DNA of 41,927 nucleotides from Phycisphaerales bacterium (GCA_016742075.1 JACVCL010000011.1:1-41927); one strand, 5' to 3'. Positions 7,239-12,660 are shown, numbered from the stretch's first letter. The notes: generated from the letters alone by a model not told the origin. Made by a program: numbers and translations.

Positions 7239-8318
7239 CTACGCGAGGTCGGCCTCGGTCAGCGGGGTGTCGGCCTCGACGGTGCGGGCGATGCGCCGGC
7301 CGATGGTCTCTTCGAGGCGGAAGGGTTCCAGGCCGGTCCCGGGTCGCTTGATGGTGAGATCCTCGCGCCTCAGCACGCGGCCGGGGTCGAGGCGGAGGGC
7401 CGCGACCAGCGACTGGCGCGAGACGGCGCGGACGTCGCGCTCCACGTCGAGCACCGATTTGTGCTCGGGCCCCCAGGTGGGGTCGCCCGGGCCCGGCAGA
7501 GGGGTGCGGTGCTCGCCCCGCTCGGCGGCGCGGACGTGGGCCACGTAGCGGGCCAGCCCGTCGGGGTCGAGGCTCGCCGCGTGATCGGGTCCCTGGGCGG
7601 AGCGGTCGTAAGTGAGGTGCTTCTCGAGGACGCGGGCGCCCAGCCGCACGGCGATGGCGCCGGTCTGCTCCGAAGCCGTGTGGTCGCTGTATCCCACGGG
7701 CACGTCGGGGAACGCGGCGGCGAGCGACGCGATGCCGCCGAGCGCCGCCCGCTCGGGGGGTGTGGGGTAGCTGCTGACGCACTGGAGGATCGACAGCCGG
7801 CTTTCCCGCCGCGGAGTGCTCAGCCACTCGACGGCGCGGGTCACCTCGTCGAGCGTGGCCGCGCCGGTGCTGACCACCAGCGGGCGGCCCGTGGCGGCCA
7901 GGGCGCTGAGCATCGGCCGGTGGATGACGTCGGGTGAGGCGGTCTTGTAGGCGTCCCACGGCAGCCGCTCGGCGGCCGCGATCAGCTCGAGGCTGAAAAC
8001 CGTGACGATCGCGGCGACGCCCAGCCGGTGGGCCATGGCGACGACGGGGGCCATCGCCTCGGCCGGTAGTTCCAGGCGCCGGAGCATCTCGAGCGGGTCG
8101 CGCTCGCCCGCCTCCGCTTGGTAGGCGGCCAGGCGCGACGCGCGGCTCATGAGCAGGTCGGCGCGGAACAGCTGCAGCTTGATGGCGTCGGCCCCGGCCC
8201 GGGCCGCCGCGGCCGCCAGGGCCAGGGCGCGTTCGGGCGAGCCGTCGTGGTTCACGCCCAGCTCGGCGATGATGAACGCCGGCGCCGCCGGGCCGATCTG
8301 GCGGCCGGCGATGTTCAC
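7239..8318 (-). CDS. neuB: N-acetylneuraminate synthase family enzyme (NeuB-like)
   Basis: A 359-residue enzyme that condenses phosphoenolpyruvate with an N-acetyl-hexosamine to make a nonulosonic acid (sialic, legionaminic or pseudaminic acid). The barrel domain shows 'AELGVNHDG' (18-26), 'AGADAIKLQLF' (41-51), 'KTASPD' (125-130) and 'HLTYDRSAQGPDHAASL' (234-250). A C-terminal SAF/antifreeze-like domain (about 295-359) has 'LTIKRPGTGL'. Both domains and the full family length are present. The exact sugar cannot be told from sequence. The start is GTG at 8318, overlapping the neuA stop as GTGA, which implies translational coupling. It is the last gene of the operon. Confidence 0.9.
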   Translation of the reverse strand: MNIAGRQIGPAAPAFIIAELGVNHDGSPERALALAAAAARAGADAIKLQLFRADLLMSRASRLAAYQAEAGERDPLEMLRRLELPAEAMAPVVAMAHRLGVAAIVTVFSLELIAAAERLPWDAYKTASPDVIHRPMLSALAATGRPLVVSTGAATLDEVTRAVEWLSTPRRESRLSILQCVSSYPTPPERAALGGIASLAAAFPDVPVGYSDHTASEQTGAIAVRLGARVLEKHLTYDRSAQGPDHAASLDPDGLARYVAHVRAAERGEHRTPLPGPGDPTWGPEHKSVLDVERDVRAVSRQSLVAALRLDPGRVLRREDLTIKRPGTGLEPFRLEETIGRRIARTVEADTPLTEADLA

Positions 8319-9067
8319 CGCGGCACCCCGCCCACCGCGCGGCCGGGCGGGGCCGCCCGCGTGCGCAGCACCGCGTCGGCCACCAGCAGGTCGATCTCCG
8401 AGTCGATGTCGATGACTTGTCCCTCGCCGGTCAACACGCCGCGGCGGTCGACGCCGAGGAACCTGTGCGGGCCCTCGGGAGCACCGGGGATCCGCAGTTC
8501 GAGCGCCGGGCGCGAGACGGCGATCACTCCTCCATCGGGCACGTGGGCCGCGGGCAGGGCCTGCCGGCGGTAGACGCCGTGGAAGAGCGCTCCGCCGTCG
8601 AAGGCGCGCACACGCCCGTCGCTCTCGCCGACCACGCACGTCCACCACGGGTGGTGCTTGCCCACCGGGGCGAAGCTCTGCACCGAATCGCAGCCCGCCG
8701 CGGCGAGCGTCGCGAGGGCCCGCCCGGCGAGGCCGGCGGGCCGCACCGGCACGTTGGCGTAGAGGATGACCACGGGGCTGTGCCCGCGCCCATCGGCGCT
8801 GCGCACCGCGTGCCGGACCGCGTCGTCGACACTGGCCGCGTCGCCGGCCAGGGCGGCCGGTCGCTCGACGGGCTCGGCGCCCAACGACGCGGCGAGGGCC
8901 AGCAGCGTCGGATCGTCGCTCGACACGAGCACGCGTGAGATGCCCGGCTCGGCGAGGGCGGCTTCGATCGTCCACGCCGCGCAGGGCCGGCCCGCCACCG
9001 GGCGCATGTTCTTGCCGGGCACGCCCTTGCTGCCCGCCCGGCCGATGATCACCGCCAGCGCACCCAT
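8315..9067 (-). CDS. neuA: CMP-nonulosonic acid cytidylyltransferase (NeuA-like)
   Basis: A 250-residue enzyme that activates a nonulosonic acid with CTP to give the CMP-sugar donor. The nucleotide-binding start is clear: VIIGRAGSKGVPGKNM at residues 6-21 (family pattern A/G-R-x-GSKG-x-PGKN), then 'VLVSSDDPTLLALAASLGAE' and 'ERPAALAGD'. The ending 'QVIDIDSEIDLLVADAVL' matches the family's C-terminal Asp-rich segment. The ATG at 9067 is 2 nt past the Maf stop codon and its own stop overlaps neuB, so all three are co-translated. Whether the substrate is Neu5Ac, legionaminate or pseudaminate is not resolved. Confidence 0.88.
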   Translation of the reverse strand: MGALAVIIGRAGSKGVPGKNMRPVAGRPCAAWTIEAALAEPGISRVLVSSDDPTLLALAASLGAEPVERPAALAGDAASVDDAVRHAVRSADGRGHSPVVILYANVPVRPAGLAGRALATLAAAGCDSVQSFAPVGKHHPWWTCVVGESDGRVRAFDGGALFHGVYRRQALPAAHVPDGGVIAVSRPALELRIPGAPEGPHRFLGVDRRGVLTGEGQVIDIDSEIDLLVADAVLRTRAAPPGRAVGGVPR

Positions 9068-9069
9068 GC

Positions 9070-12000
9070 TCAGCAGACCCCCCGGCGGGCGAGAAGATCG
9101 GCCCACGCGGCGGTTGCGCTGCGGGCCGAGAGGTCCGCCGCGAACGGACCTTCCGACGGGTTGTGCTCGCACACGGGCACCCGGCCGTCGGCAAGCACGA
9201 GCATTCGGTGGAAGCGCCGCCGCGCGGCCGCGAGGGGCGGGAGTTCCAGCGGCTCGATCCGCTCGCCCGGCTGCGCCCGCGGCAGCGGGTCGAGCACGGC
9301 GTGGCCCGCGAGCATGGTCCACCGCTGGTAGAACGGTTCGATCTCGGCGTATACGGCGTCGCAGCGCGTCATCCGCGGTGCCACCCACAGGCCCGGGAGG
9401 CCGTCGGCCGCCGTGCGGCGGGCCAGCAGACGCTCGGTGAAGTGCAGCGCCTCGCCGTAACGGTCGACGCCGGTGATGCCCCGGTAGGTCGGGGCGCAGT
9501 CGGCCAGCAGGTCGACCGACACCACGTCGACGCCGGCATCGGGCAGGCGATCGGCGAGGTCGGCGCCGCACAGGCCGTCGGTGCGTACGTGGATGCCCGC
9601 CGCCCCCGAGGCCCGGAACACGCCGACAACCTCGAAGAACCGCGGGTGCAGCAGGGGGTCACCCCGGCCGCCGAAGGTGACGAGCGCGCCCGGGGCAAGC
9701 TCGCCGGCGAGCCGGGCCGCCAGGTCGGGGCTCATGTCGCGACGGGCCTCGGGTCCCAGCCAGCGGCGGCGCGGGCTTCCCTCGCCCGCGGCCGGCCGAT
9801 GGGCGCTGAGCTCGATGATCAGTTCGCGTGGCGCTGCGGGCACGGCCGCCGCGGCCCACGCGGCGACCGTCGCGGCGGGGGCGTCGTCGAGAGCGCCGGC
9901 ATAGGGACGCAGCGCGCGCTCGAGTTCGGGTCCGGGCACGAGCCGCACGGCCGCGTCGCGCAGTTCGGTGGGAATCTGCACGCAGCAAGGCTTAGCGATC
10001 GGGTCCGAGCGCGTGGTGCCGGGGATGTAGCCCAGCAGACCGCCCATCGTGGCCAGCGGGGCCGACTGCCGGACGCCGTGGGCCAGTTCGCCCAGCAGCT
10101 CGCGGCCGGCGACGCAGCCGGCCAACCCCGGCGCCGCCTGCGAGAACACCAGCGGCTGGCTCTCGGGGGCCTCGGCGTGACGGGCGATGAGCTCGTCGCA
10201 CAGGCGGGGGTCGAGGAGGCACCAGTCGGCGCCGATCACCAGCGCCGCGTCGAGGCCCTCGCGCTCGCAGGCGGCATGGGCCACGCGGGGGTCGAGCGCC
10301 TCGTCGAACACCGTGAGCCGGCCCAGCCCGCCGCGCCAGCACGCCTCCGACCACATCCGGGCCCGGCGGATGCTCTGGCGACGCGCGAGGAGGCTGTCGG
10401 CCGAGAGGCCCAGTTCCTCGAAGGTTCGGACGGCCACGGCCACGCCCGATCCCTCGGCGGCGCGGCGGACGGCGTCGGGCGCGTCGGTCGCGACGATCAC
10501 CGAGGACAGCCGCCGGCAGCGAGCCAGCCGGCGCAGCGTGCGCCGCAGCGCTGGTTCGCCCAGGAACTCCGCGGCCGTGTCGGCGCCGGTGGCGGTGATC
10601 ACCGCGCCGCAGCGCACGCCCGCGGCCTTCTCGCCCGCGTCGGCCCGCCTGGCTTCCCAGCCCTCGGCCGGCGCATCCTCGAGCTGATCGCGTGTGCGCT
10701 TGGGCCCGCCGGCCAGCGCCGTCTCCGCCGCCGCCAGCAGGTCGGCCAGGACCTCGGCGCACTGCTCGAACCAGCGGACGTTCTCGGCGTCGCGCTCGAT
10801 CTGGCGCGACTGCTTCTCGACCGGGTCGATCCCCGGGTCGAGCCGCAGCAGGCGATCGGCCTTGAAGCGACGCAGCGCGCCGAGCTGGTTCAGCCTCTGC
10901 ACCATCGGGTAGGCCGGGTCGAGCGACTCGACCTCGGCCCGGATCCCCTGGATCTGGTCGATCAGGCGGTTGGCCCGGTCGCGGTCGCTCTGGAACCTCC
11001 GCACCTTGCCCAGCAGGTCGAGCGTTTCACGGCTGAGCCGGGCGATGCGGCGGACGTCGGCCCGCAGCGCCCCGATGCGCTGCCCGGCCGCGGCGATGCG
11101 AGGCCCGTCGCGCCGCTGGGCCCGCGCCGCGCCCGGCGGGCTTTGGGCTGGGACCGGCCGCCCCTGTGCGTGAAGCGACAGCGCGTCGGCGAGCGTCATC
11201 GGCGTGGTGTGCCGCTTGCGGACGCCGCCTTCGGTGGCGTCGATGATCCGCAGGCCCAGGTCGCGATCGGTCTTGAAGTCGCGCTCGAACTGCGCGAGGT
11301 ACGCGGCCATCTGGTCGTCGGTGTACACCGGGCGGCCCAGGTGGTCTTCGGAGCGGTGCAGGTTCGCCCCGCCGCGGGCGATGCGCTCCCACTCGAACAT
11401 CTCGAGGGTGTGGAACTCGTTGAGCTCGGCCGACCACACGCGGTGGATGGCCGCGCCCGAGGCGTAGTACTGCCCGTCGGTGAAGGCCAGGTCCTGCCCG
11501 ACCAGGATCACCGGGTCGGCCGCCATGTGCCGGGCGAGGTAGTACGCCAGGTGGGCCACCGTGGCCCCCGCGGGCAGCTCGGCCTTCTTGCCGGGCGCCG
11601 CCGGGCCCAGGGCCCGCTCGAGCTCCGGGCACGCCGGCACGCGGATGACGCCGGGGAACGCGTCGAGGATCGCCGGGTTGGCCTTGGCCTCGGCCACCAG
11701 CGTCACGCCCTCGACGTCGGCCGGTGTCAGCCCCTCGTAGAAGCGCCTGGAGATTTCGTGGTAGTCCAGGGCCGTCACGTAGTGCGGGCGGATGCCCTCG
11801 GCCAGAAGCGTCTTGAGCACTGTCTGCACGGCGATGATGACGCACCGCTGCCGCACCGACGGATCCTTGAGCAGCGCGATGTTGCGCCGCAGGCTGGGCC
11901 CGGCCGAGACGACGATCGCCGGACGGCCCGCCGCGGCGCCCTCCAGGTCGTCGACACCCGCCGAGCTCACGTAGTGGTCGGCGTTCATCAGCTCGTTGCG

Positions 12001-12660
12001 CACGGTGACGTCGGTCTGCACCATCGTGGTGATGACGTGCATCCGCGTGTGCCCGACCGCCCGGGTGAAGGTTTCCGCGAAGCGGGCCGAGAGCCCGCCC
12101 AGCCGCGGCCGGCTCGCCGCGTGCTCGACCACCGCGATGCCCACGCTCAGAGGGGCCTCGAGCCCCCGGAGCGCCTCGGCCATCTCGGCGCCGTCCTCGG
12201 CTTCGGTGAGCAGAACGAATCCGCTCTGCAGAATCCAGCGGCTGTGGTCGACGCGCTCGAGCACCGCCCGCAGCAGCGGCACGTCGGGCTCGAACGCCAC
12301 CACCGCCCCGGCGTCTTTCATCCGCTCGGCCACCGCCGCGGCGTGATGACCGAGGCCGAAGCCCAGCAGCACCACCGTCGCGGCCTTGGTCAGGTCGATC
12401 GAACCGGCCAGCGTCTGCGCCTCGGCCAGGGGGCGGCGCTTGCTCGCCAGGGCGCGGCCGTCGGCCTCGCCGGTCACCGCCCCGTCCTCGCCCGTCGAGA
12501 AGGCCACATCGGCCCGCGCCGGGGCACGCCGGATCGCCTCCGCGGCCCTCGGCGAGCGGTGAGACAGTGCCGCGAGGTTCCGCTCCAGCGTGGCCAGGCG
12601 CTGCGGGTCGATGCCGAACCCGGCGAACGAGGGCGCAGCGAGATCGATCGTGGACGGCAT
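9070..12660 (-). CDS. Maf-type glycosyltransferase fused to degenerate SpsF-like and radical-SAM-like domains
   Basis: A 1196-residue, three-part protein. Residues about 80-500 match the Maf/MptE-like (DUF115) family, whose bacterial members transfer nonulosonic acids to flagellin serine/threonine. Visible parts are 'VLLGFGLGHH' (97-106), 'AIVVSAGPSLRRN' (248-260), 'HYVTALDYHEISRRFYEG' (293-310) and 'VILVGQDLAFTDGQYYA' (384-400). Residues about 540-650 look coiled-coil. Residues 684-910 resemble SpsF cytidylyltransferases ('VIVATDAPD', 'ALVIGADWCLLDP') but lack the RLPGK loop. Residues 945-1150 resemble a radical-SAM barrel ('TFGGRGDPLLHPRFF', 'GITGVDRY') without the CxxxCxxC cluster, followed by a SPASM-like tail with one cysteine pair left. 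The start ATG has CGGAG upstream. It heads the operon with neuA and neuB. Acceptor unknown; no flagellin gene is in the window. Confidence 0.8.
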   Translation of the reverse strand: MPSTIDLAAPSFAGFGIDPQRLATLERNLAALSHRSPRAAEAIRRAPARADVAFSTGEDGAVTGEADGRALASKRRPLAEAQTLAGSIDLTKAATVVLLGFGLGHHAAAVAERMKDAGAVVAFEPDVPLLRAVLERVDHSRWILQSGFVLLTEAEDGAEMAEALRGLEAPLSVGIAVVEHAASRPRLGGLSARFAETFTRAVGHTRMHVITTMVQTDVTVRNELMNADHYVSSAGVDDLEGAAAGRPAIVVSAGPSLRRNIALLKDPSVRQRCVIIAVQTVLKTLLAEGIRPHYVTALDYHEISRRFYEGLTPADVEGVTLVAEAKANPAILDAFPGVIRVPACPELERALGPAAPGKKAELPAGATVAHLAYYLARHMAADPVILVGQDLAFTDGQYYASGAAIHRVWSAELNEFHTLEMFEWERIARGGANLHRSEDHLGRPVYTDDQMAAYLAQFERDFKTDRDLGLRIIDATEGGVRKRHTTPMTLADALSLHAQGRPVPAQSPPGAARAQRRDGPRIAAAGQRIGALRADVRRIARLSRETLDLLGKVRRFQSDRDRANRLIDQIQGIRAEVESLDPAYPMVQRLNQLGALRRFKADRLLRLDPGIDPVEKQSRQIERDAENVRWFEQCAEVLADLLAAAETALAGGPKRTRDQLEDAPAEGWEARRADAGEKAAGVRCGAVITATGADTAAEFLGEPALRRTLRRLARCRRLSSVIVATDAPDAVRRAAEGSGVAVAVRTFEELGLSADSLLARRQSIRRARMWSEACWRGGLGRLTVFDEALDPRVAHAACEREGLDAALVIGADWCLLDPRLCDELIARHAEAPESQPLVFSQAAPGLAGCVAGRELLGELAHGVRQSAPLATMGGLLGYIPGTTRSDPIAKPCCVQIPTELRDAAVRLVPGPELERALRPYAGALDDAPAATVAAWAAAAVPAAPRELIIELSAHRPAAGEGSPRRRWLGPEARRDMSPDLAARLAGELAPGALVTFGGRGDPLLHPRFFEVVGVFRASGAAGIHVRTDGLCGADLADRLPDAGVDVVSVDLLADCAPTYRGITGVDRYGEALHFTERLLARRTAADGLPGLWVAPRMTRCDAVYAEIEPFYQRWTMLAGHAVLDPLPRAQPGERIEPLELPPLAAARRRFHRMLVLADGRVPVCEHNPSEGPFAADLSARSATAAWADLLARRGVC

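Follow-up and report, generated by a model that had tools for sequence, protein, structure and literature searches.

An open reading frame on the minus strand of a Phycisphaerales contig (positions 9070-12660 of the window, the whole stretch of 41,927 nucleotides that was analysed) encodes a protein of 1196 amino acids in which a Maf/MptE-like transferase is followed by an SpsF-like nucleotidyltransferase (NT) fold and a radical-SAM/SPASM fold. The evidence suggests that two former enzymes now bind or organise instead of catalysing. The reading that is preferred here, to which a probability of roughly 0.5 is given and which rests partly on analogy with known flagellin transferases, is that the protein would transfer nonulosonic acid to flagellin and use its C-terminal half for docking, not for catalysis.

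The frame is coding over its full length, with GC3 values of 0.85-1.00 in each 60-codon block to its end, like those of the neighbouring neuA and neuB genes. This constancy indicates that the C-terminal half was not made by a frameshift or by read-through; a frameshift or sequencing artefact was ruled out on the same grounds and by conservation in dozens of independent assemblies. The Maf or motility-accessory-factor type transferase occupies residues 1-640 (10741-12660; all features of this protein lie on the minus strand) and contains the MptE-like core (residues 222-395, 11476-11997), which was recognised by PF01973 with 111.9 bits against a gathering score of 34.6 (E 3.8e-32). The best PDB match of the full-length AlphaFold2 model was the Magnetospirillum Maf 5mu5 (E 6.2e-17), and the protein falls outside the PseD family NF050051 of NCBIfam (51.3 bits, curated cut-off 670). 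A variable linker (residues 650-683, 10612-10713), with pLDDT below 50 at residues 660-679, 26-30% identity and no invariant columns, leads to the pseudo-SpsF NT domain (residues 684-930, 9871-10611), which is followed by the pseudo-radical-SAM/SPASM domain (residues 942-1196, 9073-9837).

Both C-terminal domains are invisible to Pfam alone, since Radical_SAM (PF04055) gave only a weak match under its gathering score (E 8e-4) and the cytidylyltransferase and NTP-transferase matches were also sub-threshold (CTP_transf_3, E 0.23; PF02348, 11.7 bits against a gathering score of 22.6). Their fold was settled by AlphaFold2 and fold comparison. Confidence in the full-length model (pLDDT 88.4, pTM 0.83) drops only in two linkers and at the N-terminus, and the model of the C-terminal 530 amino acids reached a mean pLDDT of 93.1. 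When this second model was compared with known structures by VIA-align, its residues 15-282 matched the Leptospira cytidylyltransferase 6oew (Z 18.7, rmsd 3.2, 216 residues), which places a nucleotidyltransferase fold at residues 684-930 of the protein, and its residues 244-530 matched the radical-SAM barrels of SuiB (Z 20.2-20.9) and MoaA (Z about 20), with SkfB, PqqE and BtrN as further matches (Z 19-21 for SuiB, MoaA, SkfB and PqqE; Z 18-21 for SuiB, MoaA, PqqE and BtrN). In a profile-profile comparison the NT family was also aligned with true SpsF over the whole domain (98.4% probability, E 8.9e-15). The three domains called in an earlier sequence-only reading of this DNA were therefore borne out by PF01973, the models and the fold comparison. 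The structure prediction and superposition that it had proposed recovered the SpsF-like and radical-SAM folds in the C-terminal half, and its claim that these folds were kept despite motif loss stands.

The two motifs that the same reading had reported as lost, RLPGK and CX3CX2C, are both absent from the window protein. The RxGSxRLPGK nucleotide loop of SpsF (PF02348) is missing, and TATGADTAAEFLGE is found at its site (residues 689-702, 10555-10596), where true SpsF has ARxGSTRLPGK. Motif alignment places SAHRPAAGEG at the site of the CX3CX2C ligands of PF04055 (residues 952-961, 9778-9807). The SPASM/twitch cysteines (PF13186, CX9-15GX4C...CX2C) are incomplete, the SPASM remnant (residues 1150-1196, 9073-9213) having neither the CX12GX4C...CX2C set nor the EWHRP tail seen in relatives. 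Other landmarks were kept, among them WRGG (residues 775-778, 10327-10338), near-invariant in planctomycetes, GADW (residues 810-813, 10222-10233), whose Asp812 corresponds in the alignment to the Asp of the GDxPxxD motif of true SpsF, and GGRGDPLLHP (residues 997-1006, 9643-9672), the kept counterpart of the GGGEP SAM-binding motif. The absence of the RLPGK loop needs one correction, because in most planctomycete relatives another conserved loop, LG[LT]PSR or GGLGTPRDL, stands in its place; the window copy lacks this replacement as well.

In a combined alignment of 125 sequences (45 from spirochaetes, 13 from other classes, 19 from other orders of the class and 48 from the window's own order), CX3CX2C was present in 18 of the 45 spirochaete copies and in no planctomycete copy (0/13, 0/19 and 0/48, that is 0/80), and the four SPASM/twitch cysteines were complete in 44/45, 13/13, 19/19 and 6/48 copies, respectively. 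The six complete copies from the window's order are all separate genes, and none of the 37 fused rows has the full set. Copies from both planctomycetes and spirochaetes lack the RLPGK-type loop. The tree (FastTree, with some long branches) requires CX3CX2C to have changed state 10 times and the SPASM set 6 times. On this tree, loss of the radical-SAM cysteines happened repeatedly, and the absence of both motifs in the window protein is best described as the end of a series and not as a single event. The double loss claimed earlier thus holds for this protein and fails as a joint event, the losses of the NT loop, the radical-SAM ligands and the SPASM ligands being staggered. Simultaneous loss of both motifs was ruled out by the spirochaete relatives and the tree. 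A single decayed copy, against which the sequence-only reading had argued, was also ruled out, both motifs being missing in all 48 aligned copies of the order. Two spirochaete loci, L144 (3783-5438, plus strand) and L145 (3789-5426, plus strand), carry an insertion within the cysteine motif (CPGRALAEKAGACPLC), which is possibly an intermediate in the loss of the SAM cluster. A 565-amino acid frame of another planctomycete (L127, 706-2400, plus strand) ends in a radical-SAM domain in which both CX3CX2C and the SPASM cysteines are intact; it is a different protein, and its N-terminal part looks unrelated to this family.

The search for the same three-domain order in related genomes found the protein aligned without a break over its whole length, in open frame, in 36 of 61 genomes, its own included, and some match to it in 57. 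Throughout the window's order this domain arrangement is conserved, within a Maf/NeuA/NeuB (nonulosonic acid) operon. In two other families of the order maf and the NT/radical-SAM half are two adjacent genes, and in other orders and classes maf is immediately followed by a gene that encodes the C-terminal half alone (20/20 loci in other orders of the class), the loci examined being top hits and not a random sample. Full-length relatives also occur in other classes of the phylum, and a profile search of genome contigs with alignment A4 yielded 14 loci, spirochaetes among them. On the tree the fused copies group together in one region, and fusion state changes twice in total. Within the fused clade, L050 (428-4176, plus strand) has Maf and the C-terminal half in overlapping, different frames, owing either to a recent splitting of the gene or to a frameshift in the sequencing. 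The fused relatives L013, L026 and L046 keep the NT domain but have a shortened or eroded radical-SAM-like domain, so that the role of the barrel may be dispensable there.

A neuA-like gene for a CMP-nonulosonate synthetase with an intact loop (GRAGSKGVPGKN, GSKGVPGKN) lies at 8315-9067 on the minus strand (PF02348, E 1.3e-10; PseF TIGR03584, E 3.4e-19, under its cut-off), its ATG two bases beyond the stop codon of the Maf-fusion gene. The GTG start of neuB, the nonulosonic acid synthase gene (7239-8318, minus strand; PF03102, E 1.9e-65; TIGR03569, E 1.4e-82), overlaps the neuA stop (GTGA, read from the sequence). A neuA homologue is directly downstream in 30/30 of the loci L001-L030, and neuB follows in 29/30. 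In the window genome, which is 88% complete, a single PF01973 gene and five flagellin-type matches were found. Among the 61 relatives examined, the protein is present in 55 of the 56 that bear flagellin; of the five without flagellin, it is missing from three and divergent in two (Fisher p 0.001, not corrected for relatedness). From the neuA/neuB operon and this co-occurrence we infer that the Maf half transfers nonulosonic acid to flagellin. The two divergent forms (L039 in genome G042 and L040 in G054), in genomes with no flagellin match, consist of a shortened Maf to which this C-terminal half is fused, and the acceptor there may be another protein.

Under the docking explanation, the gene product would be a Maf-type cytoplasmic flagellin O-glycosyltransferase, its donor a CMP-nonulosonic acid made by the neuA and neuB products encoded behind the gene, and sugar transfer would be performed by the N-terminal half. 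The C-terminal half would derive from a spiro-SPASM-type protein and form a pseudoenzyme module, in which the SpsF fold could no longer bind a triphosphate normally and the barrel would hold neither the SAM nor the SPASM cluster; the absence of all three cofactor or triphosphate motifs argues against the ancestral chemistries. Most likely such a module would serve as a rigid platform on which the flagellin chain, and possibly the CMP-sugar too, is docked beside the Maf active site. The sequence-only reading had likewise inferred binding of a CMP-sugar or a peptide. A grip of the barrel on flagellin is suggested by its resemblance to RiPP-type SPASM enzymes that grip a peptide, and docking by the analogy with FlmG, whose separate flagellin-binding domain is required. 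The operon, the co-occurrence with flagellin, the separate-gene form beside maf, the conserved sites, the confident folds and low omega values are all consistent with docking; the solved Maf 5mu5, which has no such module, counts against it.

The spirochaete relatives also count against it. As a correction to the sequence-only reading, the C-terminal half is distantly but recognisably related to a catalogued NCBIfam family, TIGR04321 ('spiro-SPASM protein'), which matches residues 943-1175 (E 4.6e-9, 35.5 bits, curated cut-off 250). The separate-gene planctomycete relatives score better (E 1e-37 to 1e-43), L087 with 149 bits (E 1.7e-43) still being below the cut-off. By these profile scores the window protein is homologous to TIGR04321 yet outside the subfamily as defined. 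Members above the cut-off are near-universal in Spirochaetota (102/120 genomes) and consist of a loop-less NT domain followed by a radical-SAM/SPASM domain. With the planctomycete Maf profile no maf was detected within about 3.5 kb of the spirochaete genes (0/46 loci), Maf-type genes being located elsewhere in 117/120 genomes, so the module cannot be a Maf appendage only. A protein of roughly 330-430 amino acids follows the spiro-SPASM gene in 14 loci (L208, 2568-3551, minus strand, and treponeme-type relatives), usually ahead of an SpsF-methyltransferase gene; it looks glycosyltransferase-like by eye, and no Pfam match was obtained in the two members scanned. In the literature search 'spiro-SPASM' and 'TP0562' were not mentioned, and a search on pseudo-SAM with SPASM returned an unrelated paper only.

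The neighbourhood of the module brings in the main rival, in which the pseudo-SpsF domain is the partner of an adjacent active cytidylyltransferase (NeuA here, true SpsF in spirochaetes) that it pairs with, tunes or relieves of CMP-nonulosonate for delivery to Maf, the fusion tying synthetase to transferase. CMP-sugar synthetases of the NeuA/SpsF superfamily are commonly dimers. A loop-less NT domain adjoins an active-motif enzyme of its own superfamily in both phyla, NeuA in L001-L030 and, in 30 of the 46 spirochaete loci, a true SpsF on the same strand with an intact or near-intact ARxxSTRLPGK-type loop, many of these genes overlapping by a few bases. However, NeuA and SpsF belong to different subfamilies, which makes a conserved interface less than obvious, and in other Phycisphaerae orders no neuA was seen near about half of the loci. 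This partnership is judged doubtful, at about half the weight given to docking.

Conservation within the C-terminal half bears on whether it could still be an enzyme. Eighteen residues in the NT domain and 15 in the barrel are near-invariant, including R768, WRG775-777, D786, E787, D812, W813, R901, R906, D1001 and H1005. The charged residues of the NT pocket (R768, R776, D786, E787, D812, R901 and R906) could form a real active site, which counts against docking, and an unusual chemistry might be built from the replacement loop with WRGG, DE and GADW. That the loop was replaced and not simply lost in most planctomycete relatives, and that relatives in other orders retain all four SPASM cysteines, would agree with this. 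It is nevertheless unlikely, since the replacement loop itself is gone from the window copy, the fused copies have no full set of SAM- or cluster-binding ligands, and near-invariance in the order does not always hold beyond it, the Asp at the D812 position being replaced in other Phycisphaerae and other classes, so that this residue need not be catalytic.

Both motif-less domains are under purifying selection, as measured by the Nei-Gojobori method on a few pairs of closely related genomes from another family than the window's own lineage. The closest fused-clade pair (L027/L029, dS about 0.5) gave omega values of 0.07 for Maf, 0.20 for NT and 0.18 for the barrel, and two further pairs gave 0.20-0.24 for NT and barrel (NT 0.20-0.22 over these closest pairs); a fourth, more distant pair was near saturation. 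A decaying relic, retained only through translational fusion, would fit the lower identity among relatives (NT 0.38 and barrel 0.36, Maf 0.49), the eroded barrels and the gone or incomplete cluster ligands of fused copies, but it is very improbable given omega of 0.18-0.24, which largely contradicts it, full length in at least 36 of 61 relatives, the confident fold and a stand-alone gene maintained across the phylum.

A wider scenario is offered tentatively, as possible rather than probable: the cofactors would have been shed in order, the NT loop first, then, many times, the SAM cluster with the auxiliary iron-sulphur (SPASM) cluster still retained, and finally that second cluster after fusion to Maf, and in two phyla the module would have become a scaffold of general use in the glycosylation of flagellin with nonulosonic acid, in which a dead cytidylyltransferase is paired with a live one and channels CMP-sugar to the transferase. 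Radical-SAM folds without a SAM cluster have rarely been followed. The series traced here, from ligands for both clusters to SPASM ligands only and then to neither, fused to the transferase apparently served, makes it testable what a radical-SAM fold does once its chemistry is gone, and by what means Maf transferases recognise flagellin, a step still poorly understood; with a relative near-universal in spirochaetes, the answer would apply to a second phylum as well.

When compared with known systems, the window protein shares its N-terminal fold, MptE-like core and nonulosonic-acid operon context with the Maf flagellin glycosyltransferases of Magnetospirillum (5mu5), Aeromonas (Maf1) and C. 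botulinum, although the 632-amino acid Magnetospirillum enzyme has no C-terminal pseudoenzyme half. Aeromonas Maf1 binds flagellin directly in the cytoplasm (PMC4065374). In Caulobacter FlmG a separate flagellin-binding TPR domain is fused to the transferase domain and both are needed for flagellin glycosylation (PMC7591256); its TPR module and transferase class are unrelated to those of the window protein, and the likeness is an analogy of working only. The fold of residues 684-930, with Asp812 corresponding to GDxPxxD, is common to SpsF and to the CMP-Kdo and CMP-Neu5Ac synthetases (PF02348; 6oew, 1gqc, 6ifd), from which the domain differs by its missing RxGSxRLPGK loop and its score under the Pfam gathering threshold; in B. 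subtilis spsF is part of a CMP-legionaminic acid pathway (PMC7439481). The barrel fold is shared with SuiB, PqqE, MoaA and BtrN, the GGxGDPLLHP of the family corresponding to GGGEP, whereas the fused copies have neither CX3CX2C nor a complete SPASM/twitch set. The closest counterpart in layout is TIGR04321 of spirochaetes, with the same pseudo-NT and radical-SAM/SPASM arrangement as the C-terminal half; the spirochaete copies keep CX3CX2C in 18 of 45 cases and all four SPASM cysteines in 44 of 45, whereas the window protein has ligands for neither cluster and is fused to Maf.
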